In this document: in pieces, positions 11,409 to 61,969 of the stretch
How the letters are laid out: each line of letters begins with the position of its first letter
Position numbering within the stretch: position 1 is the stretch's first letter
Source: Oscillospiraceae bacterium
Lineage (GTDB): Bacteria; Bacillota; Clostridia; Oscillospirales; Ruminococcaceae
Direction of reading: 5' to 3'
Assembly: GCA_021199355.1 (NCBI GenBank)
Contig: JAJQIF010000009.1
Span: 1-64,000 of the forward strand
DNA length: 64,000 nt
Notes under the pieces: generated by a model
What the model saw: the letters and a program-made list of their open reading frames with translations, nothing else
Told to the model about the DNA's origin: nothing
Databases searched by the model: none
Made by a program: the position numbers and the translations under genes

Positions 11409-11437
11409 CTTAAGCCAGCTTTAAGGATTTTGTGAAA
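11409..11437 (-). promoter_or_regulatory. PmrA/QseB-like box before the alpha/beta-hydrolase gene
   Basis: Minus strand reads CTTAAA-GCTGG-CTTAAG (11425-11409), two half-sites 11 bp apart, with an extra TTTCAC half-like element 12 bp further upstream (11437-11432). A weak -10 (CAAAAT) begins 10 bases after the box. Same arrangement as the boxes at 11988, 59905 and 61941. Confidence 0.6.
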
Positions 11438-11450
11438 GTTAAGTGAAAGC

Positions 11451-11477
11451 CGCCCACTCACAAGAGCAGGCGGTTTT
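11451..11477 (+). terminator. hairpin with plus-strand U-tract, between two minus-strand genes
   Basis: CCGCCCACTC, loop ACAA, GAGCAGGCGG, then TTTTTAG on the plus strand. It is a 10-bp stem (two mismatches on this strand read as wobbles on the other). It ends the acidic lipoprotein transcript on the minus strand only poorly (CTTTCACTT follows), so its U-tract points the wrong way for the annotated genes. Confidence 0.6.
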
Positions 11478-11500
11478 TAGTATAGGAGAATTATCGGGGT

Positions 11501-11938
11501 TTACTCTTCTGTCTCTTCAGAATCCGCAGATTCTTCAGCTTCTGTGTCCTCAGCTTCAGCGTCCTCAGTGGTTGATTCCTCTTCGCTGTCCGAATCAGTT
11601 GCTACAGCATCTTCAGATTCTTCAGCTTCTGTGGTTTCATCCTCAGTAGCCTCAGCGTCCTCTGATTCTTCATCTTCGGTAGCGTCGGTATCTTCGGCAG
11701 TGCCGTCGTCGGTAGACTCTTCGGACTCTGTATCATCGGTTGATTCTTCATCTTCCGCAGAAGTGTCTTCGTCATCGACTGTAACATCGTCTTCGGTTTC
11801 TTCCGCTTCTGTCTCAGCTGTGGTCGCCGCAGTGGTGGTTTCGGCTTCGTCTTCGGTATCATCACCTGAAGTACATCCCACAAGCATCACCATCAGCGAC
11901 AGGCTCATGAGTATTGCTAAAAATCTTTTGAGTTTCAT
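11501..11938 (-). CDS. acidic low-complexity lipoprotein
   Basis: 145 residues of unknown function. The signal peptide MKLKRFLAILMSLSLMVMLVGC has a clear lipobox (Cys22). The entire mature chain that follows is built almost only from Glu, Asp, Thr, Ser and Ala with a few Val, in patterns such as TEDEESEDAEATED. There is no basic or aromatic residue, so it cannot form a normal hydrophobic core. It should be an extended polyanion tethered to the membrane. Start is set by AAGGAGG and the signal peptide; the longer frame to 12079 overlaps the promoter. Third-base usage is normal for the neighbourhood, so this is a real coding region. A PmrA-like box and TATAAT lie 34-66 bases upstream. Confidence 0.8.
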   Translation of the reverse strand: MKLKRFLAILMSLSLMVMLVGCTSGDDTEDEAETTTAATTAETEAEETEDDVTVDDEDTSAEDEESTDDTESEESTDDGTAEDTDATEDEESEDAEATEDETTEAEESEDAVATDSDSEEESTTEDAEAEDTEAEESADSEETEE

Positions 11939-11971
11939 ATTTGCGTTCCTCCTTAGGAAGTTTATGCGCAT

Positions 11972-12026
11972 ATTATACTCACGGATTTTTAAAACTGCAT
12001 TAAGCCAATAGAAAAGCCTTGTGAAA
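11972..12026 (-). promoter_or_regulatory. promoter with PmrA/QseB-like box for the acidic lipoprotein
   Basis: Minus strand: CTTAAT-GCAGT-TTTAAA (12004-11988), then 10 bases, then TATAAT (11977-11972). The half-sites stand 11 bp apart and the second takes the place of a -35. A TTTCAC element lies 16 bases (5 + 11) further up at 12026-12021. Box-to--10 spacing equals that at 59905. Confidence 0.65.
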
Positions 12027-12048
12027 CGTCTGAGAAAGAAATTATGTC

Positions 12049-13650
12049 CTATTTGATAACGAGCTTCGTTTTTATACACATTAAGTCGGGTTTCACATCA
12101 ATTTCTTCTGTCATGTCGAGTACCGGCTCACCGTAGACATTGAAGTGAACTCTTCTTATTCCACTTGAACGTGGACCGTCGACGCCCGGTCGGGCATGAT
12201 ATGTGTTGAAGATGTGCTCGTCTTTATCTTTGACATATGCATTGTGCCCTGTTCCGAATTCGCCCGGAACGCTTCGTGAAGTCAGCAGGGGATAGTTCAT
12301 CTTTCGCCAGCTTTTCGGGTCGAGTGGATTCTTGCCCTTGTCTAAAATCAGCGCCGAAACGACATAGGTCGAGTCGACAGCCGCACTCGAAAATGTGAGC
12401 CAGAGCTTGTCTCCCAGGTTCAGTGCAAACGGTCCTTCGTCGACAAACGTGTGGTTGTTCGCCCAGCCGGAGTCCGGCTTCGATATTATCACTGGCTCCG
12501 AGAGAAGCCTTGTTGGTTCATCGGGGTCGAGTTCCGCAAAATAGAGCCATGCACCCAAATCCTTCGGCAGAAACTCCCTCTGCGACCAGGCGACATAGTA
12601 TTTTCCTTCCCATTCAAACTCGGTCATATCAAGCGTGATGGTTTTCCCAGCTTCCGCAAGGTCGCTTCCGTCCGCTTTCGTGACTCTTTCAGGACGAGAC
12701 CAGTCATCCCGGTTCATCGGGTCGCCGCCATCACGCAACTCCATCACGTGGCTCTCTTCCCGGAAGAATTCTCCCGGCGTGCAGGCGTGGAAGATGTAAA
12801 GCCTTCCCTTGATTTCGTGGAACTCCGGCGCCCAGAGAAGTCCTCCGATGCCTTCGTAAGTTTCGGAATCGAGCAGTAAAACCTCCTCCGCCGTCACCAG
12901 TCCCTGAATCGTCTCCGCTTTCCTTATATAAAGAGTGTGGTTTCCGTCGGCATCGTTAGTCGCAATATAAAAATAGTACCCGCCCCAGAACGTAACGCAC
13001 GGGTCAGCACGATTCACAGCAACCGGAAACTCAAAGTGCTCTTGATGAACCCTGCCCTCAATCTCATATTCGCCACTTCTGGAGAAATCGACATCGCCTA
13101 AATCCCAGTCAATCCGTTTCATATCCGTCGACCCGTCACTATAGACCGCCTTTGCCCGTATTTCGTCAAGCTCTTCTTTGGAAGAAACCGCAATTTCTTC
13201 TGGAAACTCGATAGCGATATTTTCCGGCGTCGTGAGTGTGTTGACAAGCCTTTCGGCAATTTCGTCCGGAATCTCGATTGTATCACTCATATCGAAGTCA
13301 CCGATATGCCCATAGAGCTTATCCTCCTGCCCAAGCTCCTCATACCATAGAAAATCCCGTGTCCTTGCGAGAAGAGCTGTTCCGTCGCCACATCCGTCCG
13401 CCTCAGTCCTTATTGCCGAGATAAGATAGCTCCCGTCGTCCATCCTGACAGCCTTTGGCTCTTTCAGCGACTTTGCCGTTAAAGACCCATCAGGATTCTC
13501 CACAGCCTTAGCAAAGAACACCCCACTGTTGTGGTTGAGCGCCTTGAATTCCTCGCCATTCCAAATGGCAATATGCATACTGTAAGCCAGCTTCGCATCA
13601 TAAATTGCCGTATCCATCGGCTCCCGGGTATATAATCGTATCGTCTTCAT
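12049..13650 (-). CDS. GH43-family glycosidase with Ig-like insert, cytoplasmic
   Basis: 533 residues without a signal peptide. The N-terminal half (about 1-205) holds a second five-bladed-like region (AKLAYSMHIAIWNG, TALLARTRDFLWYEE) and a small Ig-like segment (SKEELDEIRAKAVYSDGS). A GH43 five-bladed propeller follows: base Asp in NRADPCVTFWGGYYFYIATND, LWAPEFHEIKGRLYIFHA, acid Glu in TFVDEGPFAL, and GTGHNAYVKD. Family members are arabinofuranosidases or xylosidases on xylan and arabinan oligomers, and this one must act on imported oligosaccharides. I start at 13650 because GGAGG lies 9 bases upstream; starting at 13668 would bury that site. Promoter TTGCAA-17-TATTCT precedes it. Confidence 0.85.
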   Translation of the reverse strand: MKTIRLYTREPMDTAIYDAKLAYSMHIAIWNGEEFKALNHNSGVFFAKAVENPDGSLTAKSLKEPKAVRMDDGSYLISAIRTEADGCGDGTALLARTRDFLWYEELGQEDKLYGHIGDFDMSDTIEIPDEIAERLVNTLTTPENIAIEFPEEIAVSSKEELDEIRAKAVYSDGSTDMKRIDWDLGDVDFSRSGEYEIEGRVHQEHFEFPVAVNRADPCVTFWGGYYFYIATNDADGNHTLYIRKAETIQGLVTAEEVLLLDSETYEGIGGLLWAPEFHEIKGRLYIFHACTPGEFFREESHVMELRDGGDPMNRDDWSRPERVTKADGSDLAEAGKTITLDMTEFEWEGKYYVAWSQREFLPKDLGAWLYFAELDPDEPTRLLSEPVIISKPDSGWANNHTFVDEGPFALNLGDKLWLTFSSAAVDSTYVVSALILDKGKNPLDPKSWRKMNYPLLTSRSVPGEFGTGHNAYVKDKDEHIFNTYHARPGVDGPRSSGIRRVHFNVYGEPVLDMTEEIDVKPDLMCIKTKLVIK

Positions 13651-13681
13651 ATCAAAACCTCCAAGCATTAATACTACCTTC

Positions 13682-13710
13682 AGAATACACTATTTTCCGG
13701 CAGTTTGCAA
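13682..13710 (-). promoter_or_regulatory. promoter of the GH43 gene
   Basis: TTGCAA (13710-13705), 17-base spacer, TATTCT (13687-13682) on the minus strand, 32 bases before the start codon. Confidence 0.6.
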
Positions 13711-13770
13711 TGATTTATAGTCGGGGAATTGTTGATTTATTGTAAGGGACGCTCGCCAATCCAACATTAT

Positions 13771-13812
13771 ATAGGGCTGGATATACAGTTATCTTCGCTA
13801 ACTGCCCGCCCG
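13771..13812. repeat. dispersed intergenic palindrome, long variant, copy 3
   Basis: Opens ATAGGGCTGGATATACAG, closes CTGCCCGCCCG, with an inner hairpin AGTTATC/GCTAACT-like. Shares both ends with the copy at 4791-4835. A second degenerate fragment (GTAAGGGACGCTCGCC) lies just before it at 13742-13757. It fills the gap between divergent GH43 and aro promoters. Confidence 0.78.
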
Positions 13813-13876
13813 AAGCCCTCTAGCATTCCAAAGTGGATTTTCCGATTTAAATCAATAAAAATATTTCAAAAACCTC

Positions 13877-13905: not shown

Positions 13906-13960
13906 CTATAAAGATGAACGAGGAATCGTTCTAAAACAGTATTTTACGGAGAGTTGCACG

Positions 13961-24816: not shown

Positions 24817-24832
24817 CGTTTTCAGGCGATAT

Positions 24833-24888
24833 TTAACATAGATTTAACATAACAGTGCTTTCAGACTTAACATTAACTGCGTTATATT
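24833..24888 (+). promoter_or_regulatory. PhoP-type boxes and promoter of the pst operon
   Basis: TTAACA at 24833, 24844 and 24867, plus TTAACT at 24874. The first two start 11 bases apart, the spacing of TT(A/C/T)ACA direct repeats bound by B. subtilis PhoP dimers; the third is roughly two turns on. A -10-like TATATT follows at 24883-24888 without a good -35, as in activator-dependent promoters. PhoP and PhoR genes lie at the end of the same locus. Confidence 0.75.
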
Positions 24889-24947
24889 AGAGCCATGGAC
24901 GGCAAAAGTCCGTCTCACTTGTATTATCTGAAAGGATGTTATTTGAA

Positions 24948-25757
24948 ATGAAAAAAGCAAGAATATTTGCGCTTATTATGTGCCTCGTAATGGCACTCGG
25001 CTGCTTCACCGCTTGCGGCGAGACCGAAGCTCAGTCGGTTTCCACCGACGGTTCCACCTCAATGGAGAAGGTCATGGGTTACTTCATGGAAGCCTTCATG
25101 GAGGAGAACGAAAACATCACCGTTACTTACAATCCCACCGGTTCCGGCTCCGGAATTCAGGCTGTAATCGACGGCACCTGCGACATCGGTCTTGCAAGCC
25201 GTAACCTGAAGGACACCGAGCTTGAGACCTGCGACCAGACTGTTGTTGCAATCGACGGCATCGCAGTAATCGTAAACACCTCTAACACCGTATCCGACCT
25301 TACAATCGCTCAGATTGCTTCCATCTTCACCGGCGAAATCACCAACTGGAGTGAAGTAGGCGGCGAGGACCTCCCCATCGTCTGCATCGGACGTGAAGCT
25401 TCCTCCGGCACCCGTGACGGCTTCGAGTCCATCACCGGAACCGCTGATGCTTGCGTCTACTCTCAGGAGCTCACCTCCACCGGTGACGTTGTCAGCGCAG
25501 TTTCCTCCAACCCGAACGCAATCGGCTATGTTTCGCTCGCTTCCGTAAACGATACCGTAAGTGCAATCTCCGTTGAGGGAGTATTCCCGACCAGTGCTAC
25601 AGTCCTTGACGGCTCGTATGCAATCCAGAGAAACTTCATCTTCGTAACCAAGAAGGACACTGCTCTCTCGGATGCCGCTCAAGCATTCTATGACTTCTGC
25701 ACCAGCTCCGCTGTAAACGAGTATGTAGAGGCCGCAGGTTGCGTACCTGTAAACTGA
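24948..25757 (+). CDS. pstS: phosphate-binding lipoprotein PstS
   Basis: 269 residues. Lipoprotein signal with lipobox FTAC, then a type-II periplasmic-binding fold: GSTSMEKVMGYFMEAFMEEN, NPTGSGSGIQAVIDGTCDIG (phosphate-contact Ser/Gly loops) and GREASSGTRDGFESI. It captures phosphate for the PstCAB transporter. I start at ATG 24948 because the ATG at 24936 overlaps the AAAGGATG ribosome site. A 10-bp hairpin without U-tract follows in the gap to pstC and may make pstS mRNA more abundant than the rest. Confidence 0.95.
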   Translation: MKKARIFALIMCLVMALGCFTACGETEAQSVSTDGSTSMEKVMGYFMEAFMEENENITVTYNPTGSGSGIQAVIDGTCDIGLASRNLKDTELETCDQTVVAIDGIAVIVNTSNTVSDLTIAQIASIFTGEITNWSEVGGEDLPIVCIGREASSGTRDGFESITGTADACVYSQELTSTGDVVSAVSSNPNAIGYVSLASVNDTVSAISVEGVFPTSATVLDGSYAIQRNFIFVTKKDTALSDAAQAFYDFCTSSAVNEYVEAAGCVPVN

Positions 25758-25795
25758 TTCAGATAGTTTCAAAACCCGATATATGCTTTCATCTT

Positions 25796-25826
25796 CGAGA
25801 AGTGCTCTTGCCTCGGGCACTTCTCG
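25796..25826 (+). other. intergenic hairpin between pstS and pstC
   Basis: CGAGAAGTGC and GCACTTCTCG form a perfect 10-bp stem with an 11-base loop and no following U-run. More likely an mRNA 3'-end stabiliser or partial terminator than a full terminator. Confidence 0.7.
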
Positions 25827-25865
25827 GGGAGAACGGCAAACAAAGCTACAAAAGGATACTTAAGA

Positions 25866-26744
25866 ATGGATAAAGTAAAAAAGACAGCACATGCCCTTGA
25901 TAGGATAATGAACGCTATATTCATAATCTGCGGCTTCTTAGCTGTTGCACTTGTAGTAGTAATAACAGTATATCTTGTTGTATCAGGCATACCGGCAATA
26001 AAGGAAATAGGAGTCTTCAAATTCCTCTTCGGAACCGTCTGGAAGTCAACAGGCGAAAATCCATCCTATGGAATACTCCCGTTCATCTTAACGAGCGTCT
26101 TCGAAACCTTCGGAGCGATGCTCATCGGTTTTCCTCTGGGGCTTCTCTGCGCCGTTTGCATAGCAAAGATGTCCGGTAAACGTTTCTCCGGAATCATGAG
26201 ATCTTTTGTCGACCTTATGAGCGGAATCCCGTCGGTAGTATTCGGACTCGTCGGAATGATTTATGTAGTCCCGGCAGTCAGAGAGATGTTCAACCTCCCC
26301 GACGGAGCGAATCTCTTCTCCGCAATGGTGGTCTTGATTATAATGATTCTCCCGTCGGTAATTTCGATGTCCGAAACCGCGATAAGAGCAGTCCCCAAGG
26401 AGTATGAAGAAGCGTCTCTGGCACTCGGCGCCAACAAAACCGAAACCATCTTCAATGTCACGATTCCCGCGGCAAAGAGCGGAATATTAGCTTCCTTGGT
26501 AATGGGAACAGGTAGAGCAATAGGAGAAGCTACAGCTGTAATGATGGTAGCCGGAAATGTTGCGAATATGCCCGGGCTCTTCAAGAGCGTCAGATTCCTG
26601 ACAACGGCTATAGTAAGCGAGATGGCTTACTCCTCCGGTCTCCAGCGTCAGGCACTGTTCAGCATAGCATTGGTACTCTTCGTATTCATCATGATAGTAA
26701 ATCTTATACTCAACCTTGTGGTAAAACGCAAGAAGGACAAATAA
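25866..26744 (+). CDS. pstC: phosphate ABC transporter permease PstC
   Basis: 292 residues, six predicted membrane helices, with the permease EAA loop in EEASLALGANKTETIFNVTIPAAKSGI. SGIPSVVFGLVGM is the conserved PstC/A segment. It pairs with PstA to form the channel. Three bases separate it from pstA. Confidence 0.94.
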   Translation: MDKVKKTAHALDRIMNAIFIICGFLAVALVVVITVYLVVSGIPAIKEIGVFKFLFGTVWKSTGENPSYGILPFILTSVFETFGAMLIGFPLGLLCAVCIAKMSGKRFSGIMRSFVDLMSGIPSVVFGLVGMIYVVPAVREMFNLPDGANLFSAMVVLIIMILPSVISMSETAIRAVPKEYEEASLALGANKTETIFNVTIPAAKSGILASLVMGTGRAIGEATAVMMVAGNVANMPGLFKSVRFLTTAIVSEMAYSSGLQRQALFSIALVLFVFIMIVNLILNLVVKRKKDK

Positions 26745-26747
26745 CTT

Positions 26748-27638
26748 ATGAAAGATTTGAAAAAGAGCAATGGTAGTATATCCACTTCCAGAAAAGTAAA
26801 AACAGCGATTCTCAAGGCACTTGTCTATCTTTCAGCGGTATTAATCATAGCCGCAGTGCTGTTTGTGGTAGTGGTAATAGTAATAAGAGGACTTCCGAAT
26901 ATCAGTTGGGAATTCCTTTCGAACGGCGTCAGCTACTTAAAGGGCATAACGGGAATTCTCCCGAACATCTTAAACACCATCTATGTGGTAATCATGACGC
27001 TTGTAATCGTTCTCCCCGTCGGAACGGGAGCGGCGATATACTTAAATGAATATGCAAAAAACAAGAAAGCAGTTGCGGTAATCGAATTTGCGACAGAAAC
27101 GCTTGCGGGAATCCCGTCAATCATCTATGGTCTGGTCGGCATGCTTATCTTCGTCCAGACCTTCAAGCTCAAGACAAGCCTTCTTGCGGGTTCACTTACA
27201 CTCGTAATCATGACTCTTCCGACGATAGTCAGAACAGTTCAGGAGAGCTTGAAGACCGTTCCGGACAGCTACCGTGAAGGTTCCTTGGCTTTGGGATCAG
27301 GTAAGTGGCACATGGTCCGCACTGTTGTCCTTCCCTCGGCAATAGACGGTATCGTCACCGGCTGTATCCTTTCGATAGGAAGAATCGTCGGTGAGAGTGC
27401 GGCGCTTCTCTTCACCGCAGGCATGGCGGACGTCATCTACACGCCTCTTGAGGCTATAACCCCGAACCACGCCGGCTCGACTCTGGCGGTTGCACTTTAT
27501 GTCTACGCCAAGGAGCGCGCCGATTCCGGAACGGCGTTTGCAATCGCATTCATACTGCTTATTCTTACACTTATAATAAACACAGCCGCAAAGATTGCCG
27601 GCAAGAAGCTAAAGAGGAGGACGGAGAATGAAGGCTGA
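26748..27638 (+). CDS. pstA: phosphate ABC transporter permease PstA
   Basis: 296 residues, six helices; [13 protein letters not shown] and the EAA loop [24 protein letters not shown]. Second subunit of the phosphate channel. Overlaps the pstB start by 11 bases. Confidence 0.94.
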
Positions 27639-28464
27639 GATTGATATAACAAGGGTCGAAAACGACGACAAAGAAATAAGAGAAATTCAGAATACGGAGA
27701 TTCTTTCCGACGGCGAAACCCTCATTGACGTCGAGCACATGAATCTCTGGTATGGTGAAAATCACGCAATCAAGGACGTGAGCCTTGCAATCCCGCAGAA
27801 CCGTATAACCGCACTTATCGGACCTTCGGGTTGCGGTAAATCAACGTTTTTAAAGTCCCTCAACCGTATGAACGACCTGGTTGAAGGCGTAAAGATAGAG
27901 GGCAAGCTCACACTTGCCGGTGTAGACATATACAAAGACATAGATGTGTCGGTTCTCAGAAGACGTGTCGGCATGGTCTTCCAGAAGCCGAATCCCTTCC
28001 CGATGAGTATCTATGACAACGTCGCCTATGGCTTGAGAGTTCAGGGTGTCAGATCCCGTGTTCAGCTTGACGAAGCGGTTGAGCGTTCGCTCCGACAGGC
28101 GGCAATCTGGGACGAGTGCAAGGACAGATTAAAGAAGAGTGCCTTGGGACTTTCCGGCGGACAGCAACAGCGTCTCTGCATCGCAAGAACAATAGCGGTC
28201 GAGCCCGAGGTGGTACTCATGGACGAACCGACTTCGGCTCTTGACCCGATTTCAACATCAAAAATAGAAGAGCTCGCTCTGGAGCTCCGCAAGAATTACA
28301 CAATCGTAATAGTAACACACAATATGCAACAGGCGGCGAGAATTGCCGACAAGACGGCGTTCTTCCTATTGGGCGAGCTAGTCGAGTACGGCGACACAAA
28401 CAAGATGTTTTCCTCGCCCTCTGACGACCGCACAGAAGCATACATAACGGGGAGGTTCGGATGA
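27628..28464 (+). CDS. pstB: phosphate ABC transporter ATPase PstB
   Basis: 278 residues; Walker [10 protein letters not shown], signature LSGGQQQR, Walker [14 protein letters not shown], switch His in [13 protein letters not shown]. About 25-30 residues longer at the N-terminus than usual PstB ([20 protein letters not shown]), a polar extension preceding the standard [16 protein letters not shown] start. The upstream ATG has a good AGGAGG site, so the extension is probably translated. Confidence 0.95.
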
Positions 28465-29105
28465 TGAGAGAAAATCTTTCAAGGCAGCTTGAACTTTTGA
28501 ATAATGAGCTTATAGAAATGGGTGCCCTCTGCGAGGACGCAATCGCATCTGCTGTAAAATATCTTTCGACGGCTGACAATAAGCTTTTGGATAATGCCGC
28601 CGAGGCGGAGCGCCAGATTGACCGTCAGGAGCGCGAAATCGAAGACCTCTGTATGAAGCTCATAATCCGCGAACAGCCGGTTGCAACCGACCTGCGAGTT
28701 ATTTCTTCCGCACTCCGCATGACCTCCGACATGGAGAGAATCGGCGACCAAGCTTTCGATATCTCGGATGTCGCAAAGAACATCGCACCTCTGAAGGTCG
28801 GCGGGGAAATTCGGATTTACGACATGGCGGAAGCAACCGTCAGAATGGTAACCGAGAGCGTCAACTCGTTCGTAACGAAGGATGTTGCCGCCGCAAAGGC
28901 AGTAATTGCAATGGATGACGTTGTCGACAGGCTTTTCGATGACGTCAAGAACGAGCTTATCGTCGCAATCGAGCAGAAGAGCGGCAAGGGCGAGCTCTAT
29001 ATCGACCTTCTGATGATTGCGAAATACTTCGAAAGAATCGGCGACCACGCCGTAAATATTGCCGAATGGGTTATTTACTCGGTGACTGGCTCACACAAAG
29101 CCTAG
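28461..29105 (+). CDS. phoU: phosphate signalling protein PhoU
   Basis: 214 residues, all helical, two PhoU repeats (VAxDLRxIxxxLRMxxDMERIGDxA seen as [20 protein letters not shown] and [19 protein letters not shown]). It links PstSCAB activity to the PhoR kinase. Overlaps pstB by four bases (ATGA). Confidence 0.95.
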
Positions 29106-29134
29106 TTGCGGAGCAGTCAAAAATATGCTATAAT
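29106..29134 (+). promoter_or_regulatory. separate promoter for phoPR
   Basis: TTGCGG, 17-base spacer, TATAAT with the extended -10 TGCTATAAT. The -35 overlaps the phoU stop. It would give phoPR a basal expression independent of the pst promoter. Confidence 0.78.
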
Positions 29135-29159
29135 CAAATTATAGCTTTGGATAGGAGTG

Positions 29160-29831
29160 ATGGTCTTGGCGAGAATTTATCTGGTCGAGGATGACGACAA
29201 TATAAGAAAGCTCATCTGCTACGCACTTTCGAAAGAAGGTCACGATATAATCGGCTTCCCGACACCTTCTGAGTTCTGGGAGGAATACAGGCTTTCTAAA
29301 CCTGAGCTCATACTTCTTGACATAATGCTCCCTGAGGAGGACGGACTGTCAATTCTTAAAAAAGTCAGAGCAGAATCAGATATGCCTGTTATAATGCTTA
29401 CGGCAAAGGGCTCGGAGTTCGACAAAGTCACCGGACTCGACTTAGGAGCAGACGACTACATCACAAAGCCCTTCGGCATGACCGAGCTTTCCTCCCGTGT
29501 CAGAGCTGTTCTCCGCAGAAGCGGCAAGGCGATTGACAAGTCGACCGAATATAATGTCGGAAACGTGCACCTCGATTCCGAAAAGCACACTGTCAGGGTC
29601 GGCGACGAGCCGGTGTCCCTTTCCTTCAAGGAGTACAGCATCCTTCTGATGCTCTTGCAGGCGAACGGCAAGGTTGTCGGCAGGGAAGAACTCCTTAACC
29701 ACATCTGGGGCGAGTACTACGGCGAGTCGAGAACCCTTGACGTCCACATAAGGACGCTTCGCCAGAAGTTAGGCGAATCGGGAAGCCTTATCCAGACAGT
29801 AAAAAAAGTCGGTTACAGAATAGGTGAATAA
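29160..29831 (+). CDS. phoP: response regulator PhoP/PhoB type
   Basis: OmpR-family regulator of about 222 residues: receiver with acidic pocket EDDDN, phospho-acceptor Asp in LILLDIMLPEEDG, Thr in MLTAKG, Lys in YITKPFG; winged helix C-terminal with LNHIWGEYYGESRTLDVHIRTLRQKL. Start is uncertain: ATG 29160 lies only two bases after the GGAG, while TTG 29166 has an ideal 8-base gap. Genetic linkage to pst-phoU and PhoP boxes at 24833 support the phosphate role. Confidence 0.92.
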   Translation: MVLARIYLVEDDDNIRKLICYALSKEGHDIIGFPTPSEFWEEYRLSKPELILLDIMLPEEDGLSILKKVRAESDMPVIMLTAKGSEFDKVTGLDLGADDYITKPFGMTELSSRVRAVLRRSGKAIDKSTEYNVGNVHLDSEKHTVRVGDEPVSLSFKEYSILLMLLQANGKVVGREELLNHIWGEYYGESRTLDVHIRTLRQKLGESGSLIQTVKKVGYRIGE

Positions 29832-29834
29832 AAA

Positions 29835-31508
29835 TTGAGCACACTCAGTAAAAAAATATTTCATTCGGTAATTTTGGTGGCACTACTGGTGCTGATTGCC
29901 TGCATCGCCCTTATTATGGGCGTACTCTTCGACTACTTTGAAACGAGCCTCGAATCTCAGCTTCAGGAAAAGGCGGAGTATATCGCTTACGCCGTCAACC
30001 AAGATGGAATCGAGCTTATCGAAGGCTATGGCGACGAGGAATCGAGAATCAGCGTTATCGCCTCCGACGGAACGGTTATCTATGATTCTGCCGCCGATGC
30101 GGAAACCCTCGAGAACCACTCCGACCGCGAGGAGATAATCGAAGCTCTTGCGACCGGCACAGGTTCGAGCACCCGTTACTCCGAAACCCTCACCGAAAAG
30201 ACAATCTATTATGCGATTCTTCTTGACGACGGAAGCGTCCTTCGTGTCGCGGCAACACAGTATACGGTTGTGACTGTTCTTCTTGGGCTTGTAAGACCGA
30301 TACTCGTTGTCCTCGCGATTGCGCTTGTTCTCTCACTTCTTCTTTCGCTCAGGGCTTCGAAGTCGATAGTCGAGCCGATTAATAATCTCAATCTCGACTC
30401 TCCCGAAAAGAACGAAACCTACGAGGAACTTACGCCTCTTCTCAACAAGCTTTCGGCTCAGAGAAGGACGATAGCGGAGCAGATAAAGAGTGCCGAAAAA
30501 CAGCAGTCGGAGTTCCGGCTCATAACTGAAAACATGACCGAGGGCTTCCTCGTCATTGACAAGGACCTCTGCATCCTGACATACAACAGCGCGGCTTTGA
30601 GCCTTCTCGGACTCAGCACTCCCGTTACAGGAAGTGTTCTCCGGTACAATCGCACAAAGGGCTTGAGAACAGCCATCGAGTCTGCGCTTTCCGGTGAGAA
30701 AGCCGAGAGCTCGATGGAGATATCCGGACGGTGCTATAGCCTGATTGCAAGCCCCGTATACGAAGAAAACGCCGTAATCGGCGCGGTAATCATAATCCTC
30801 GACGTGACCGAAAGTCAGGAGAGGGAACAGCTGAGACGCGAATTTACCTCGAACGTCTCCCACGAGCTAAAAACGCCGCTCACATCAATCTCCGGCTTTG
30901 CCGAGATGCTGATGGCGGGGGATGTGCCGGCTGAGCTTTCAAAGGATTTCTCGAAGTCCATCTATGACGAAGCACAGCGGCTGATAGCGCTTATTGGCGA
31001 CATAATCAAGCTAAGTGAACTTGACGAGGGCAATGTCGGAGGGCTCGACCGCGAAGATGTTGATCTTCTGACCCTTTCCGAAAGCGTCAGACAGCGTCTT
31101 TTGCAGGAAGCCGAAAAGAAGGGTGTCGAGCTCACCGTCGAGGGCGAGAGCGCACACGTCAACGGAATTCTCAGAATCTTAGACGAGATGATATATAATC
31201 TTGCCGATAACGCCATCAAGTATAACCACCAGGGCGGCAAGGCAACGATAAGCGTTGAGAACGCTCAAGACAGCGTTATTCTCAAGGTCAGCGACACCGG
31301 TTGCGGAATTCCACAGTCAGAGACGGACAGAGTCTTCGAGCGGTTCTACCGTGTCGACAAGAGCCGTTCCGGCGAAGTCCCGGGCACAGGTTTGGGTCTC
31401 TCGATAGTCAAGCACGGCGCTATCTACCACGGCGCAAAAATCACCCTTGACAGTAAAGAAAACGTCGGAACCACGATAACAATCGAGTTCCCGAAAGTAA
31501 GTCAGTAA
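29835..31508 (+). CDS. phoR: phosphate sensor histidine kinase PhoR
   Basis: 557 residues: helix at about 10-31, an extracytoplasmic sensor (32-140), helix at 147-172, a linker, a PAS domain (about 220-330: ITENMTEGFLVIDKDLCILTYN), HisKA with phospho-His in FTSNVSHELKTPLTS, and HATPase with N, G1 and G2 boxes (LADNAIKYN, VSDTGCGIP, GTGLGLSIV). Starts with TTG, three bases after phoP. The large sensor loop and PAS domain match Gram-positive PhoR. Confidence 0.93.
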   Translation: MSTLSKKIFHSVILVALLVLIACIALIMGVLFDYFETSLESQLQEKAEYIAYAVNQDGIELIEGYGDEESRISVIASDGTVIYDSAADAETLENHSDREEIIEALATGTGSSTRYSETLTEKTIYYAILLDDGSVLRVAATQYTVVTVLLGLVRPILVVLAIALVLSLLLSLRASKSIVEPINNLNLDSPEKNETYEELTPLLNKLSAQRRTIAEQIKSAEKQQSEFRLITENMTEGFLVIDKDLCILTYNSAALSLLGLSTPVTGSVLRYNRTKGLRTAIESALSGEKAESSMEISGRCYSLIASPVYEENAVIGAVIIILDVTESQEREQLRREFTSNVSHELKTPLTSISGFAEMLMAGDVPAELSKDFSKSIYDEAQRLIALIGDIIKLSELDEGNVGGLDREDVDLLTLSESVRQRLLQEAEKKGVELTVEGESAHVNGILRILDEMIYNLADNAIKYNHQGGKATISVENAQDSVILKVSDTGCGIPQSETDRVFERFYRVDKSRSGEVPGTGLGLSIVKHGAIYHGAKITLDSKENVGTTITIEFPKVSQ

Positions 31509-53667: not shown

Positions 53668-53696
53668 ATAATAACATTTTGCGTGATTCTTTTCAA
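53668..53696 (-). promoter_or_regulatory. promoter of the uxuAB-capA-GH31 operon
   Basis: Minus strand TTGAAA (53696-53691), 17-base spacer, TATTAT (53673-53668), 84 bases before uxuA. It faces the kdgA promoter. Confidence 0.78.
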
Positions 53697-53740
53697 GACC
53701 TTTTTAAGTATTGCATAGACTTTTTTCTGAATTTGAATTC

Positions 53741-56020: not shown

Positions 56021-58267
56021 TTAAGTTTGGGCGCCGCCTCGACCGCCGCCGAAGCCTCCTTGGTTGCCGCCCATGTTGCCTCCCATATCTCTGTCAGGAG
56101 TGGTACCGGTATCTGGAGCAGTCATGCCGCTATCGAAGCTGTTACCACTATCGCCTTTGCCGCCACCTATATTGCCGCCGGTCATTCCGCCCATGCCTGT
56201 GGTTTCGCTGTAGATAAGGCTTGAGAGGGTAACTTCGGTTGACGAACTGCCGTAGGTGACTGTATAGGTCGAGCCGGTAGAGAGGGAAGGACAGCTTATC
56301 AAGATGCAGGAGTAAGAAGAACTGCATGTATATGAGACAAGCACGTTGCCGCTTGAATCTTTAAGAGTAATGGTGTCGCCCGAGGAGCCGCTTGCCAAGA
56401 GAAGCATCGAGCCCTGAGTCGAGCTTGAGCCGAAGTTCTCCTGCATTCCCGAAGCGCCGACCGCTATGAGCGTTCCGCCGGTAATGGTTCCGGAAGCCTC
56501 CCAGTCAACTGGTGCATCGGCGCTCGTCGTGGGACCTGAGACATAAAGCTCACCGCCGGACATTGTGAAGGTTCCGTTCGAGTCGATTCCGTCGCCACTC
56601 GCCTTGACATAGATGACGCCGCCGGAAATCGTAATGCTTGAAGATGAACTGCCCGAGGAGAACGAGTCTCCGCCGAAGCCTCCAAATCCTCCGAAGCCGC
56701 TCGAATCGCCTCCGCCTGCGGCATTGATGCCGTCGTCGCTCGAAACGAGGTCTATATTTCCGCCCGAGATGGTGACCGTTTCGCCCTCGAGACCTTCATA
56801 GCTCTGTGAGATGCTTATTGTGCCGCCAGAAATGTTCAGCTCTTCATCAGCGTGCATTCCGTCGTCGCCGGTTGCGATGTCAAATGTGCCGCCGGAGATG
56901 GTAACGTCGCCGTTCGAGTGAACTCCATCGTCCTCGGAATCTATATTGAAGGTTCCGCCCGAAACAGTGACCGACGAGCCGCCCTTCAAGCCCTTGGTGC
57001 TCGACGAGTCATCCGAGCTTGAACCCGAGCTCCAACCGTCCCAGCTGAAGGCTCCGCCCGAGGTGTAAGAAGTCGAAACCTCTCCCGCACCGTCGGCTGT
57101 GGTGATGTCGAAATCGCCGTCTTCAATCTGGAGATATGTCGCCGCACTGATTCCGTCGCCGTCGGCGTTTATCGTGAAGTTGCCGCCCGAGATATAGACA
57201 AATCCTATCGAAGAATCTGTCGAATCCTCGGCGTGTATGCCGTCTTTTGTAGATGTTATGGTGTAATTGCCCTTAGCGATTCTCACGCTTTCGCCTGCCG
57301 AAAGACCGTGGCTGTCAGAGGTTATCCCGATTGTGGCATCTGTGATAACCAAAGTCACATCCGCTTTGATGCCCTCGTCGACAGAATCAATCGTGAAATC
57401 GCCGTCGTTAATGGTGATATTATTCGATGCGCTTATTCCGTCGTCGGAAGCAGTGATATCGAAGGTGCCGCCGGCGATATAGATATATCCGAGGCTTGTA
57501 TCGTCCGTATTTTCCGAATGAATTCCGTCCTTGCCGGATGATATTGTGAACGTTCCGCCCGCAATATTGACACAGTCCTTGCCGCTCAAGCCGTGATTTG
57601 CGGCTGTAATATTGTAGGTTCCGCTTGTGATGACCAAATCATCTTTTGAAACTATGCCGTGCCCTGCGTTCGCGGTTATCGTAAGAGTGCCCGAGCCGTT
57701 CAAGGTTAAGTCGTCTTTTGAGTAGATGACCGCATCAATGTTGTTCTCGTCGATGGCAACATAGCTTCCGCCGTTCGCAAGGGTATTCGATGTTCCCGAG
57801 GCGGTTGTGATATAAACCTTGTCGGCGTTCAGAACGTATATAGCCGCTGAGGTCTTACTCGTGATCGAAACGCCGTTCAGAACAATCTGAACATCGTCCT
57901 TGCTGTCGGCGTCGACAATAATCATTCCGTCGTCGAGGGTTCCGCTTACAATATAGGTTCCTTCATCGGTGATTGTAACGGTGCTTCCCGAAATCGTAAC
58001 CAAGGACGATGAGCATTCCGCTGAAGAGCCCGAAAGGGTAATAGCAATGCTTGAATCCTCATCATAGCCAATTTCATAGTCTCTGTCGGTGAACATTTCA
58101 CTTGTGCCGGTACTCGATAATTCTGCTTCCACGAACATCTCGCTCGAGTCGATAGTCACGATGGGGTTGTCGGTGCTTGAAGCGCTCGACGAGCACCCCG
58201 AAAGACATGCAGTAAACAAAGCCGCTACACTTATAAGCGACAAAATTCTCTTTATCCTGTGATTCAT
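56021..58267 (-). CDS. Cthe_2159-like carbohydrate-binding beta-helix lipoprotein
   Basis: 748 residues. Signal peptide with lipobox LSGC (Cys25). From about 85 to 560 a long right-handed beta-helix of about 20-residue rungs, many of the form ISGGTFxIxSxDDGIHAxGxV, with ordered Asp-Gly pairs that could bind calcium. It belongs to the DUF4353/Cthe_2159 family, whose founder is a surface protein of Clostridium thermocellum binding cellulose and pectate. A Ser/Gly-rich insert (about 535-560) and a Gly/Asn/Met-rich tail (MGGMTGGNIGGGKGDSGN, MGGNMGGNQGGFGGG) end the chain. Third gene of the VTC operon. Confidence 0.9.
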   Translation of the reverse strand: MNHRIKRILSLISVAALFTACLSGCSSSASSTDNPIVTIDSSEMFVEAELSSTGTSEMFTDRDYEIGYDEDSSIAITLSGSSAECSSSLVTISGSTVTITDEGTYIVSGTLDDGMIIVDADSKDDVQIVLNGVSITSKTSAAIYVLNADKVYITTASGTSNTLANGGSYVAIDENNIDAVIYSKDDLTLNGSGTLTITANAGHGIVSKDDLVITSGTYNITAANHGLSGKDCVNIAGGTFTISSGKDGIHSENTDDTSLGYIYIAGGTFDITASDDGISASNNITINDGDFTIDSVDEGIKADVTLVITDATIGITSDSHGLSAGESVRIAKGNYTITSTKDGIHAEDSTDSSIGFVYISGGNFTINADGDGISAATYLQIEDGDFDITTADGAGEVSTSYTSGGAFSWDGWSSGSSSDDSSSTKGLKGGSSVTVSGGTFNIDSEDDGVHSNGDVTISGGTFDIATGDDGMHADEELNISGGTISISQSYEGLEGETVTISGGNIDLVSSDDGINAAGGGDSSGFGGFGGFGGDSFSSGSSSSSITISGGVIYVKASGDGIDSNGTFTMSGGELYVSGPTTSADAPVDWEASGTITGGTLIAVGASGMQENFGSSSTQGSMLLLASGSSGDTITLKDSSGNVLVSYTCSSSYSCILISCPSLSTGSTYTVTYGSSSTEVTLSSLIYSETTGMGGMTGGNIGGGKGDSGNSFDSGMTAPDTGTTPDRDMGGNMGGNQGGFGGGRGGAQT

Positions 58268-58302
58268 ATTCCTGTTCTCCTTACGCGGTTACAAACTGCG
58301 TA

Positions 58303-58998
58303 TCAAAGCTCCGCAACCTGAGTTTCCTGCTTTGAGATGGAAATCTCAAGGTTGCCGTTGCGGCAACGGAGCTGGTCGATAAATTCTTTTTCCTTTGAGG
58401 GGTCTCTTAAGACAATGTCATAAGTAAGTCGATAAAGGCTTCCCATGTTGGTGGTCTTGACGTGGGTGAGCTCATGTTCGGAGGTGTACTCCTTCATGAG
58501 GTCGTCGAAAACTCCCGTGTAGTCAAGGTCCTCGGGGATGGTGATGTGAAGCGTCTTGTATTTCTGGGCTCTCTTCTTCACGCCAAAGTCAAGAGTCGAA
58601 TAGAGCATGCTTACAGCTCCGAAAAGAACGGCGCACAGGAATCCGAATCCTATATAGCCCATTCCGACGACAAGTCCGGTGCCCATCGCGAGAAAGATTG
58701 CCAATATTTCCTTTGCTGTTCCCGCGGCGGAACGGAATCTGACGAGGCTGAAAGCTCCCGCAACCGCAACCGCAGTGCCGATATTGCCGTTTACCATCAT
58801 TATAACAACGCATACAACCGCCGGCAAAAGTGCGATTGTCGCGACAAAGCTCTTTGTATATCTGGTCTTGTACATATAGCACAACGCCAGAATCAGTCCT
58901 ATTAAAAGTGCGGAAACCACGCAAGTCAAGAAGTCGGAAACAGCGATAGTTGAAGTGGTGTCCGAGTCGAAAATTCCTTTGAAAAGATTGTCAAGCAT
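58303..58998 (-). CDS. DUF4956 membrane protein
   Basis: 231 residues: four or five helices in the first 140 residues, with the conserved GAFSLVRFRSAAGTAKEI loop, then a cytoplasmic alpha/beta part (HITIPEDLDYTGVFDDLMKEY, YRLTYDIVLRDPSKEKEFIDQLR) of ACT-like type. DUF4956 proteins are almost always next to VTC polyphosphate polymerases and may form the channel through which the polymer leaves. Overlaps the VTC gene by 8 bases; 35 bases to the beta-helix gene. Confidence 0.9.
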   Translation of the reverse strand: MLDNLFKGIFDSDTTSTIAVSDFLTCVVSALLIGLILALCYMYKTRYTKSFVATIALLPAVVCVVIMMVNGNIGTAVAVAGAFSLVRFRSAAGTAKEILAIFLAMGTGLVVGMGYIGFGFLCAVLFGAVSMLYSTLDFGVKKRAQKYKTLHITIPEDLDYTGVFDDLMKEYTSEHELTHVKTTNMGSLYRLTYDIVLRDPSKEKEFIDQLRCRNGNLEISISKQETQVAEL

Positions 58999-59749
58999 AA
59001 AGACGTCCTCCGGTTGTTACTTGTATTGTGTTGACGGGTGCCGTGCGGCTCAGGCTGTGCTCCTCGAACATCTTGCGATAAGCCGTGCCGTATTTCGAGA
59101 AGGAGGTTTTGAAGATTCCAAGTCTGTTGAGCTCGTGGCTCATCCAAAGCGGATATCCGCCTGAGGTCTTAATTTCCATAAGTGTCATGCCGTCTTCCAG
59201 CAGTGAGAGCCCATAGGCATCGCTTTCCAGAGAGAAGTCGTCCTGACGGCAGAGAATGTTTTCGTCAAACGTGACTCTGAAATCCGAGCCGTCGTCCGAA
59301 TAGTATGCTTCTCTTTCGTAAGAAATAAACATCGCCGGTCTTAAGTCGCCATAGTAGTTTCTGAAATATTCAATCTCGTTCGCAATCTGCGAGTGAACGG
59401 GAAGGGGAATGCCATGCAGTAAACAGAGTGTCGCTTCGCCTGCGGGAAGTTCGAGCCTTCTTTTATAGACGACCGACTTGTATTTCTTCTTGAGCTCCAC
59501 GAAAGCGGGGTCCTCGGGACCGACCTTCTTATAGCTCCGAAGTCTTAATTTTTCCTTGTAAGTAGGGCTCTCGAGTGAGTGCCTTATGAGGCGGTAGTTT
59601 TCGGTATCGAAGTATATATTTCTGATTGTCGTTCTTCCGTACTTGTCGAGCTCCATATAAGGTCGCATTGCTTCCTTTATGGCGCACTTCTGGGCGCGTG
59701 TCAGCATATACTTGACTTCATAGCGCTTGAACGTGGCTTGATAGTCCAT
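58991..59749 (-). CDS. VTC-domain polyphosphate polymerase
   Basis: 252 residues. The VTC tunnel-fold is evident: RYEVKYMLTRAQ, IRNIYFDTENYRLIRHSLESPTYKEKLRLRSYK, KKYKSVVYKRRLELP, SYEREAYYSDDGSDFRVTFDENI, LMEIKTSGGYPLW, KYGTAYRKM. Basic residues of the tunnel and the metal Glu (ELKK, EIKT) are preserved. In yeast Vtc4 this domain polymerises ATP gamma-phosphate into polyphosphate. Bacterial VTC proteins with DUF4956 are proposed to feed the chain across the membrane. Confidence 0.92.
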   Translation of the reverse strand: MDYQATFKRYEVKYMLTRAQKCAIKEAMRPYMELDKYGRTTIRNIYFDTENYRLIRHSLESPTYKEKLRLRSYKKVGPEDPAFVELKKKYKSVVYKRRLELPAGEATLCLLHGIPLPVHSQIANEIEYFRNYYGDLRPAMFISYEREAYYSDDGSDFRVTFDENILCRQDDFSLESDAYGLSLLEDGMTLMEIKTSGGYPLWMSHELNRLGIFKTSFSKYGTAYRKMFEEHSLSRTAPVNTIQVTTGGRLYA

Positions 59750-59882
59750 TGTGATCCTCCTTAAGATTTTGGAGTGTTTGCGAATTATAAATCATAAATG
59801 GGGGGATCCCCGGGCACATCCGCTATTGGGATTCCGAAAGGAGTTCAGAAAGAGTACGAATGGCGGATGTGCCTCAGGGATT
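59750..59882 (-). other. structured 5' leader of the VTC operon
   Basis: Between the predicted start point and the VTC start the RNA would form a hairpin: GGCACATCCGCC-type arms (59863-59873 and 59813-59823, 11 bp perfect, extendable to about 20 with a few mismatches), loop 39 bases, then the GGGGATCCCC dyad. No U-tract follows, so not a terminator. Not a riboswitch class I recognise. Confidence 0.65.
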
Positions 59883-59888
59883 ATCTAA

Positions 59889-59932
59889 AGTATACTTTAC
59901 ATTCCTTAAGTCTGCCTTAAATGAAAGTGAAA
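59889..59932 (-). promoter_or_regulatory. PmrA/QseB-like box and promoter of the VTC operon
   Basis: Minus strand: TTTCAC, N5, TTTAAG-GCAGA-CTTAAG (59921-59905), 10 bases, TATACT (59894-59889). Half-sites recur every 11 bp. The box replaces the -35, as at activator-dependent promoters of OmpR-type regulators. Confidence 0.72.
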
Positions 59933-59946
59933 ATAAGGTTAAAATT

Positions 59947-61221
59947 TCATAAAGGAAATGTGACAGTCATCAGGAGCGATTTCTCGTCAGTGGTCGAGGC
60001 GGAAATCTTCCCCTTGTGGGCAGTGACGATAGCCGCGGCAATCGAAAGCCCCAGCCCATAGCCGCCTGTCTGCGAGTTCCGACTTTCATCCATCCGATAG
60101 AATCTATCAAACAGATGCGGCAGGCTTTCCTTCGGCATATAGGAGCAGGTGTTGAACACCGACAGCCGTATTGAGCCCCTCTGCTGTTCGAGGGTAAGAC
60201 TTATGGTGCCGTTCTCGTCCGAATATTTCATTGCGTTGTCAAGAAGCACTGCAAGAAGCCTTCTTATCGCCTTTTCGTCTCCGCAGAGGCTTATCATCGG
60301 CTGAACGGAACCGGAAAGATTCTTCCCTTGAGTCTTAGCCAGAGACCGGTATTCTTCAAGGGTCTCCTCGACAATGTCCGAAAGAGGGAAGTCTATCATC
60401 TGATACTGCGGCTCCGGCTCTTCCATCCTCGACAGCGTTATAAGGCTGTTTGTCATGTCGGTAAGCCTTGAAACCTGATTTCGGATGTCGGTTATCCACT
60501 CGTTTTCGCCGACGTCCATTTCAAGCACTTCCGCATCCGCACCTATAACCGTCAGGGGAGTTTTGAGGTCGTGCCCGGCGTCGGTGATGAACCTGCGCTG
60601 TTTTTCATAGTTTTCCCAGAACGGCTTGACAATTCTTCCCGAAAGGAAAATCAGGAGGATAAGCACCATCACAAGCCCCGCAACCGAAATTCCGAGGCTC
60701 GCCGAGATAACCGTTCTGAACGTCGTAAGGTTTCTCGCACAGTCAAGGAACACAACCGTCGTTTCGGTTTCACTTATGTTCACGAGATATCTGTAATCGT
60801 CAGCAAAGCCTTTTGTCTTGCCTTCTGCGATAATGCTCTCGGCATACTCAACCGCTTCGGAAGTGTCAACGGCAGCAATCTTGCCGGTATTGACGGAAAC
60901 AAGATTTCCCGAGCGGTTGTTGAAGGTGACGGTGAAATATCTCGTTTCATATTCGAGCTCGGGGGATTCAAGAATAGCAGTCTGCCTGTTGTTCGCACCG
61001 TCGTTTCCGTTGCTTGGGTCTATGCCGTCGCCCTCCGGCGGTTCTTCGTTCCTATCGGGAAAGCTTCCGCCGTTGTCCGCCAAAAGTGCCAGAACGGCAT
61101 CCGCATCGTCGATAATTCCGCGATAGGTGGAATATGTGATAACACCGTCAACGATTGAAAGAACTATGATAAGAGAAAGCATAGTCGCGCCGATGAGCTT
61201 GAGGCGTAGATTATTAATCAT
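59947..61221 (-). CDS. sensor histidine kinase (PmrB/QseC-like architecture)
   Basis: 424 residues. Helices at about 10-30 and 170-195 bracket a 140-residue extracytoplasmic loop that is markedly acidic (RNEEPPEGDGIDPSNGNDG, ESPELEYET). No HAMP consensus is clear. HisKA with phospho-His in FITDAGHDLKTPLTV (Gly-His-Asp rather than Ser-His-Glu), then N, G1 and G2 boxes (LLDNAMKYS, RLSVFNTCSYMP, GGYGLGLSIA). Start ATG 61221 overlaps the regulator's end by 8 bases; the longer frame inside the regulator gene is a shadow. Partner of the 61214 regulator. Confidence 0.9.
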   Translation of the reverse strand: MINNLRLKLIGATMLSLIIVLSIVDGVITYSTYRGIIDDADAVLALLADNGGSFPDRNEEPPEGDGIDPSNGNDGANNRQTAILESPELEYETRYFTVTFNNRSGNLVSVNTGKIAAVDTSEAVEYAESIIAEGKTKGFADDYRYLVNISETETTVVFLDCARNLTTFRTVISASLGISVAGLVMVLILLIFLSGRIVKPFWENYEKQRRFITDAGHDLKTPLTVIGADAEVLEMDVGENEWITDIRNQVSRLTDMTNSLITLSRMEEPEPQYQMIDFPLSDIVEETLEEYRSLAKTQGKNLSGSVQPMISLCGDEKAIRRLLAVLLDNAMKYSDENGTISLTLEQQRGSIRLSVFNTCSYMPKESLPHLFDRFYRMDESRNSQTGGYGLGLSIAAAIVTAHKGKISASTTDEKSLLMTVTFPL

Positions 61222-61894
61222 CGGGAATCTCCTCCAAAGAGTAGCCTGCGTTTCTGACAGCCTTGATCTGGATGTTCGCCTTGAGCGCGTCAAGCTTCTT
61301 TCGCAGGTAGGAGATATAAACCCAGACAACGTTTATCTCCGATTCGCTGTCGTAGCCCCAGATTTTCTCTAAGAATCTCTCCGACGGAATGATGGTGTGC
61401 GGGTTGCTCATAAGAAATTCGAGCATCTGGAACTCTTTATTGGCAAGTCGCAGGCTTCCCGAGGGAGTCGAGAGCTCAAAAGTGGCTCTGTCAAGGGTCA
61501 CGTTCCCGAATTTTATCTGCGAGCTCTGATGCTGTGTCGAAGTCCTTGTCATCGCCCTGATTCGTGCCAGAAGCTCCTGCGAATTGAACGGCTTCGTGAG
61601 GTAGTCGTTCGCTCCGAGGTCGAGCCCCGCAACCTTGTCGCTCACCTCCGAGCGGGCTGTGAGCATGAGAACGGGAATCTGGTTTCCCTTGGCTCTCATT
61701 TCTTTAAGGACGGTGAACCCGTCGACCTTCGGCATCATTATGTCGAGTATAACCCCGTCATAGTTGTCCGCCTCGAGATACGAAAGGGCTTCCTGCCCGT
61801 CATAAACGGCATCGACCGAGTAGTTGTTTCTTTCCAGAATAGCAACCAGTGCTTTCGATAAAGCCTTTTCGTCTTCCGCAAGAAGAAGTCTCAT
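61214..61894 (-). CDS. OmpR-family response regulator
   Basis: 226 residues: receiver with EDEKALSKAL, phospho-Asp in GVILDIMMPKVDG, Thr in MLTARS, Lys in YLTKPF; winged-helix domain 130-220 (LANKEFQMLEFLMSNP, VVWVYISYLRKKLDAL, the recognition-helix region). First gene of the two-component operon. Its own promoter and that of the VTC operon carry the same YTTAAG-repeat boxes, implying autoregulation and direct control. By box type it would be of the PmrA/QseB class, although sequence alone does not prove it. Confidence 0.93.
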   Translation of the reverse strand: MRLLLAEDEKALSKALVAILERNNYSVDAVYDGQEALSYLEADNYDGVILDIMMPKVDGFTVLKEMRAKGNQIPVLMLTARSEVSDKVAGLDLGANDYLTKPFNSQELLARIRAMTRTSTQHQSSQIKFGNVTLDRATFELSTPSGSLRLANKEFQMLEFLMSNPHTIIPSERFLEKIWGYDSESEINVVWVYISYLRKKLDALKANIQIKAVRNAGYSLEEIPDD

Positions 61895-61922
61895 ATCCTG
61901 TCCTCCCTTATTTACTGTTACT

Positions 61923-61969
61923 ATTATAATACCATTCCAACTTAAAATCTACCTTAAATTTCGGTGAAT
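61923..61969 (-). promoter_or_regulatory. promoter of the two-component operon with PmrA/QseB-like box
   Basis: Minus strand: ATTCAC, N5, TTTAAG-GTAGAT-TTTAAG (61958-61941, here N6), 12 bases, TATAAT (61928-61923). The box differs by one base in spacing from the others. Confidence 0.7.

Follow-up and report, generated by a model that had tools for sequence, protein, structure and literature searches.

The window analysed here is a stretch of 64,000 nucleotides of contig JAJQIF010000009.1 (assembly GCA_021199355.1) from an Oscillospiraceae bacterium, positions 1 to 64,000 of the forward strand. It contains a two-component regulator-kinase pair and, directly behind it, an operon headed by a gene for a VTC-domain protein, and the promoters of both carry tandem hexamers related to YTTAAG, which are very probably binding sites of the OmpR-type regulator encoded at 61.2–61.9 kb and place a regulon under its control. 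Conservation is reported over 11 congeners, out of 31 members of the genus searched, and bit scores refer to a sequence profile, R1, made from the VTC and regulator sites and those of a fifth gene outside the window, with the promoters of an acidic lipoprotein and a hydrolase held out. The features of the cluster are as follows.

61926–61969, minus strand: regulator box and promoter, ATTCAC-N5-TTTAAG-N5-TTTTAA-N10-TATTAT (R1 39.3 bits; kept in 11/11 congeners).
61214–61894, minus strand: OmpR/PhoB-type response regulator with the recognition helix VVWVYISYLRKKL (PF00072 and PF00486).
59947–61221, minus strand: sensor histidine kinase (HisKA/HATPase_c), with an inferred ATG start at 61221.
59889–59932, minus strand: VTC operon promoter, TTTCAC-N5-TTTAAG-N5-CTTAAG-N10-TATACT (R1 43.4 bits; kept in 11/11 congeners).
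58991–59749, minus strand: VTC-domain protein, polyphosphate-polymerase-like (PF09359, 4.5e-38, 131.6 bits against a cut-off of 23).
58303–58998, minus strand: DUF4956 membrane protein (PF16316).
56021–58267, minus strand: Cthe_2159-family carbohydrate-binding lipoprotein (PF14262; solved chains 4peu/4phb at 1.8e-42).

The regulator has both the receiver and the winged-helix domain of the OmpR/PhoB family. In its partner kinase two long helices are predicted, with about 140 residues separating them, and we take both as membrane helices. A Pfam search of kinase residues 1–200 found no family, and an AlphaFold2 model of the sensor domain (mean pLDDT 86) had no counterpart in Foldseek at E ≤ 0.001; therefore, we propose no signal for it. 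The VTC box starts directly 3′ of the kinase gene, and the regulator, the kinase and the VTC operon therefore constitute one cluster. The VTC protein matches yeast Vtc4 (3g3q) by profile only at 2.5e-4.

The preliminary description of this DNA had placed YTTAAG-N5-YTTAAG pairs before the regulator, the VTC operon and two lipoprotein genes about 50 kb away, for which the following features were obtained, the lipoboxes being read by eye from translations.

11972–12026, minus strand: acidic lipoprotein promoter, TTTCAC-N5-TTTTCT-N5-CTTAAT-N5-TTTAAA-N10-TATAAT.
11501–11938, minus strand: acidic lipoprotein of 145 amino acids, lipobox LVGC (from the translation).
11393–11448, minus strand: hydrolase promoter, TTTCAC-N5-TTTCAC-N6-CTTAAA-N5-CTTAAG-N10-CAAAAT (from the inner TTTCAC onward, 11437–11393).
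8993–11353, minus strand: tannase-like lipoprotein hydrolase of 786 amino acids, lipobox LVGC (NCBIfam NF041555, 124 bits, below the cut-off of 550).

Boxes are indeed present at all four places, on the minus strand, as tandem hexamers with a period of about 11 bp; however, only the VTC pair is a perfect YTTAAG-N5-YTTAAG on the functional strand, the hydrolase pair having one mismatch and the acidic and regulator pairs two each. A spacing of 10 bases from the last hexamer to the −10 element was first described for two promoters, but it holds in all four as well as in that of the fifth gene, although the hydrolase −10 (CAAAAT) is poor. The TTTCAC-like element noted upstream occurs in all four, where it continues the array by a hexamer; it lies one repeat beyond the pair, or two repeats in the case of the acidic promoter. 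For the regulator the spacer would be N6 if TTTAAG were insisted on, but we adopt N5 because 8/11 congeners read TTTAAG-N5-TTTTAG-N10-TATTAT; within TATTATAAT of this promoter, an alternative TATAAT lies 3 bases beyond TATTAT.

Outside the window, a genome search found a further site of the same layout.

C7:282335–282378, plus strand: fifth-gene promoter, TTTCAC-N5-TTTTAG-N5-TTTAAG-N10-TATCAT.

The gene behind it encodes a 642-residue lipoprotein with a lipobox, for which a Pfam search found no family and whose sequence similarity to the Cthe_2159 protein is confined to the signal peptide. The box precedes a gene that starts like this lipoprotein in 10/11 congeners; in the eleventh (L090, G027:C2:71603) it is conserved, but a script search found no lipoprotein-like frame of more than 60 residues behind it.

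When R1 was run over the 11 congeners (150 first-look candidates scored per genome, to E 10), each genome had three strong sites, one each for the regulator, VTC operon and fifth gene (33 in total, 27.6–44.7 bits), of which three, those of the fifth gene in G002, G029 and G030, were absent from the training set. With stricter filters (105 candidates scored, E 0.01), a run over 60 relatives returned the same 33 sites and single weak matches of 17.7–21.0 bits in four other genomes, and the other 20 genus members had no strong site at E 0.01, one of them having a 17.7-bit match. The regulator is at least 95% identical in exactly the 11 congeners with strong sites, whereas the best value among the other 20 genus members is 63%, and the VTC protein is at least 91% identical in the same 11. 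A pattern of three half-sites plus a −10 element (2 mismatches) likewise occurs 2 times in the own genome against 0 in the control, and 26 times in the 11 congeners against 6; these 26 comprise 8 each of the VTC, regulator and fifth-gene promoters and 2 matches elsewhere in G024.

A genome-wide scan for the pair had been named beforehand as the test that could refute the regulon, and it gave a divided answer: the bare pair occurs at chance frequency, and the extended promoter alone rises above it. Allowing 2 mismatches, the window has 23 bare pairs against 14.9 expected, a number reached by 7 of 100 shuffles; in the own genome (1 mismatch allowed) there are 27, compared with 105 for the reversed pattern, and adding the −10 element leaves 14 against 27 in the control; the 14 take in all five promoters. 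The four perfect pairs of the own-genome scan are those of the VTC operon and the hydrolase and two within reading frames. The earlier statement that the window lacks further intergenic pairs almost holds, the exceptions being TTCAAG-N5-TTTAAG at 53692–53708, which lies before a KDPG-aldolase gene and has no −10 at N10, and the TTTAAC-N5-TTTAAC pair at 24832, before pstS. These bare-pair counts weigh against a regulon, as does the close relatedness of the 11 congeners, through which their conservation partly reflects shared descent; the distribution of strong sites follows a clade and does not supply independent evidence from each genome. Against chance, the case rests on conservation over the 11 congeners. 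The counts would also suit the view that the boxes are T/A-rich hexamers that happen to stand before ordinary −10 elements and were noticed because four were sought. The long form, however, is specific and conserved and recurs before VTC genes in other families, and chance as a general explanation is hardly credible; it is contradicted for the VTC, regulator and fifth-gene promoters and still thinkable for the acidic one.

Support for the two lipoprotein promoters near 11–12 kb is less even. In the alignments, the invariant columns fall mostly in the hexamers (18/24 in the acidic promoter, 16/18 in the hydrolase promoter) and the −10 element (6/6 and 5/6), with few in the spacers (5/25 and 4/21), the 11 congeners having 11 distinct sequences, flanks included, for the acidic promoter and 9 for the hydrolase promoter. 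Though held out of R1, the hydrolase promoter was found by it in G029 and G030 (17.1 and 15.9 bits), where it gave the highest scores after the 33 strong sites. Several points count against including the two genes: with 150 candidates per genome and E 10, R1 lists the hydrolase promoter in none of the other 9 congeners and the acidic promoter in none of the 11, the acidic half-sites lack the final G, and the hydrolase box has an N6 spacer besides its poor −10. The acidic gene, whose product matched no family in a Pfam search, is the weakest member of the target set. Directly downstream of the tannase-like lipoprotein gene lies a family 10 glycoside hydrolase gene (xylanase type, 7512–8975), possibly co-transcribed with it. 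A lipobox protein is encoded in 4/5 target units, which agrees with the membrane-attached targets of the preliminary description, while its label of polyanion-related proteins was not borne out.

Beyond the genus, we examined the best 80 of at least 554 relatives, loci from named genomes obtained by a scan with the VTC alignment and picked by likeness to the window VTC protein; most are metagenome bins labelled Lachnospiraceae, Oscillospiraceae or Clostridia, and the nearest is an Oscillospiraceae bin at 98%; records of Agathobaculum, Massiliimalia and Blautia also came out of the scan. A box (TTAAG repeated at period 10 or 11) precedes VTC or its leader gene in 61 of the 80 loci, 53 within 400 bp (up to 2 mismatches) and 8 further up, within 1,250 bp (up to 1 mismatch), these eight comprising seven before an htrA-like gene and one in L239. 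The background rate was 115/5,330, from windows taken every 400 bases over the same 80 loci with the real sites included. A TTAAG pair with a period of 10 or 11, followed after ten bases by TANNNT (1 mismatch), gave 78 matches in 55/80 loci, compared with 7, 1 and 1 in Markov sequences, and other periods and gaps gave 0–17, so that the peak at gap 10 is sharp. The repeat period is 10 rather than 11 in 34 of 50 tabulated relative sites. Among these 50, no single position is favoured for the third half-site TTTCAC in other families, and about a dozen have, by eye, TTAAG-like hexamers upstream instead.

The box is also linked to the regulator. A related regulator (at least 44% identical) is encoded in 54/80 loci, L187, L190 and L228 among them, with its own box within 260 bp in 35/54, and VTC or its leader gene has a box in 45 of the 54; in L208 and L244 the regulator and VTC genes are divergent and have a common intergenic region. 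Against the linkage, a VTC box also occurs in 16/26 loci that have no regulator nearby, and at our thresholds no box was found in 19/80 VTC loci and 19/54 regulators. An HtrA-like gene, absent from the window, stands directly before VTC in 10/80 loci (L180, L182, L184, L185, L188, L190, L194, L199, L201 and L205) and itself has a box (up to 1 mismatch) in 7/10; that of L199 (7080–7970) was confirmed as Trypsin_2. The regulator and kinase lie directly upstream in 7 of these ten; of the rest, two end too early and L182 lacks a regulator within range. Other boxes precede a PcsB-like M23 protein, HlyD adaptor and ABC ATPase in L208 and an FtsX-type permease in L244. A different direct repeat, TTAAGATT-N3-ATTAAGATT or close to it, was seen upstream of ordinary-looking promoters in L284 (at about 989; G000:C7:437888), L285 (G000:C26:52949), L288 and L289, before an apparent ABC transporter gene (by eye) in L284, L288 and L289, and could serve a different regulator as its box.

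The genome encodes seven OmpR-type DNA-binding domains, including that of the window regulator, and the presence of six further regulators, one of them (PhoP) with similar half-sites, weighs against assigning the boxes to the 61-kb regulator. One of these six could bind them instead, the 61-kb pair being merely a target. However, where the neighbouring regulator has a different recognition helix, the box differs too. Among 56 regulators, 49 have a VVW-type and 7 an NVE-type helix. With the gap to the −10 widened to 10–11 for both box types after the NVE boxes had been viewed, the VTC promoters of the VVW group read TTAAG in 37 cases and TTCAA in none (12 uncalled), whereas those of the NVE group read TTCAA in 7/7; the regulators' own promoters gave 27 TTAAG, 0 TTCAA and 22 uncalled for VVW and 0, 6 and 1 for NVE. 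At gap 10 alone, the VTC promoters gave 38 TTAAG, 0 TTCAA and 11 without either for VVW and 0, 0 and 7 for NVE. Fisher values for the helix-box pairing are 2.6e-8 and 9e-7, with relatedness ignored. The NVE regulators form one related group (44–49% to the window regulator), with one member in this genus (G021), so that the change of helix and box may have been a single event, which tempers the argument. Nevertheless, since the 61-kb regulator is also present wherever the strong sites are, control of the boxes by another OmpR-type regulator appears very unlikely. The earlier proposal of a regulon under the 61-kb kinase and regulator is supported as the best reading, the regulator's own box being retained across all 11 congeners, the sites tracking the regulator and the box its recognition helix.

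PhoB binds direct repeats that recur every 11 bp and take the position of a −35 element. The regulon boxes resemble those of PhoB and PhoP in having repeats at this period that replace the −35, and differ in that the half-site of the latter ends in C and the target is pst. The window provides the contrast itself, with a pstSCAB-phoU-phoPR operon at 24936–31508 (PhoP gene 29157–29831) and the following element, which lies outside the regulon.

24832–24848, plus strand: likely PhoP box before pstS, TTTAAC-N5-TTTAAC (conserved in 11/11 congeners).

This is probably the PhoP box of the genus. Were the VTC and lipoprotein boxes Pho boxes bound by this PhoP, phosphate control would suit a polyphosphate gene, and the VTC promoter does have a further TTTAAC upstream (59943–59938). 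However, that TTTAAC is not conserved in the congeners, and C closes the pst box in every one of the 11, whereas the regulon hexamers close to the promoter mostly end in G. Moreover, the 61-kb regulator has the TTTAAG form in its own promoter, and the box goes with the presence and helix of this regulator. Compared with the half-sites of the local PhoP box, the regulon boxes do not appear to belong to the Pho regulon, and control by PhoP seems very improbable. Single in-frame stops, each an assembly error or a broken gene, interrupt the regulator in L113 (G030; TAG) and pstS in L171 (G002; TGA).

The preliminary description had also likened the motif to the boxes of PmrA/QseB-class regulators. 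The likeness holds for the shape of the box, with YTTAA-type hexamers and a five-base spacer; PmrA boxes are described, in the available text, as CTTAAG/XTTAAT hexamers five bases apart (PMC3973317). It does not hold for the protein. Membership of the window regulator in that class was tried and rejected, with 163.2 bits against a cut-off of 330 for the NCBIfam PmrA model and 160.4 against 345 for QseB; the best model, RppA, gave 227 bits, below its cut-off of 250. Among 37 solved chains matched, those of ArlR, PhoP of M. tuberculosis and CovR come closest to the DNA-binding domain, and none of the 37 is named PmrA or BasR, although BasR is among the full-length matches (7e-32). A PmrA/QseB-class regulator at this locus is therefore extremely unlikely. 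ColR has a consensus that its source, as far as accessible, gives as a T-run with a (C/G)AC end.

A closer parallel is offered by CiaRH of streptococci, for which the accessible portions of three papers describe binding of CiaR to NTTAAG-N5-TTTAAG, a motif search with ten bases to the −10, an extremely important last G of the hexamer, a regulon that includes htrA and the system's own operon, the helix VVEVYVSKVRKKL, and an apparent absence from other bacteria (PMC3091779, PMC8317062, PMC11034029). One of them also describes C as a rare first base of the second hexamer in streptococci and a CiaR helix that varies there by V/I changes only (PMC3091779). The window VTC box, TTTAAG-N5-CTTAAG, fits the direct repeat NTTAAG-N5-(T/W)TTAAG, ten bases separate the last hexamer from the −10, a box stands at the regulator's own operon (in 11/11 congeners here), and 9/13 helix residues are identical between VVEVYVSKVRKKL and VVWVYISYLRKKL. 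By contrast, the constant target here is VTC-DUF4956-Cthe_2159, this genus has extra upstream TTTCAC half-sites, many relatives have a period of 10, and W, Y and L at helix positions 3, 8 and 9 lie outside the streptococcal range. Because of this helix, we do not file the window pair as a CiaRH member; compared by box, spacing and helix, CiaRH would be the closest known system, and the pair appears to work like it.

Bacillus anthracis belongs to another class of Bacillota. Its CiaR-like BAS0540-BAS0541 regulator is described, in the text available, as binding TTTAAG-N5-TTTAAG in gel shifts with DNA from before several genes, its own among them, and the table of its binding sites includes the gene of an RND efflux MFP subunit (PMC4938410). 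The repeat is that of streptococcal CiaR, the comparison with the window pair being by box alone, and the difference is that no VTC target is named for B. anthracis in the accessible part of that paper (PMC4938410). Gram-positive pel loci, in turn, are reported, in the portion available, to group genes for a polyphosphate polymerase and for DUF4956 together as accessory genes (PMC7112168); there they accompany CotH and pel, whereas here they accompany Cthe_2159 and a two-component system.

Taken together, we hypothesize that the kinase senses a signal and that the regulator, presumably phosphorylated as a result, would bind a direct array of two to four hexamers spaced by roughly one turn of the helix, with YTTAAG near the promoter and TTTCAC-like hexamers further up. 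Occupying the site of a −35 element, 10 bases upstream of the −10, it would recruit RNA polymerase in the manner of PhoB and CiaR, thus acting by activation rather than repression. Its targets would be its own operon, the VTC-DUF4956-Cthe_2159 operon and the fifth lipoprotein gene at C7:282.4 kb, and probably also the tannase-like and acidic lipoprotein genes. Such a mechanism would fit the observed anatomy and conservation of the sites, the genome-wide specificity of their long form, their linkage to the regulator and the co-variation of helix and box.

Since htrA-, pcsB- and FtsX-type genes follow the same box in some relatives, a role in envelope stress may be suggested from these few loci. 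We tentatively raise the possibility that a CiaRH-type envelope-stress system occurs widely among gut Lachnospiraceae and Oscillospiraceae, with VTC-DUF4956-Cthe_2159 as its constant target, that bacterial VTC hence serves envelope stress, perhaps making a surface phosphate polymer, and not phosphate storage, and that in a sister group box and helix were rewired together, the box going from TTAAG to TTCAA. A literature search of titles and the starts of abstracts, with subscription journals mostly outside it, found no link of a two-component system to VTC in Clostridia, nor did a few papers naming VTC or DUF4956 alongside a histidine kinase contain such a link at those words. The published work found says little on the role of bacterial VTC-DUF4956 operons, and the conserved regulator and promoter would provide a handle on it, through the inducer of the pair and any protection of the envelope by VTC. 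In addition, TTAAG and TTCAA would offer a natural two-specificity set for studying how OmpR-type recognition helices choose their DNA.

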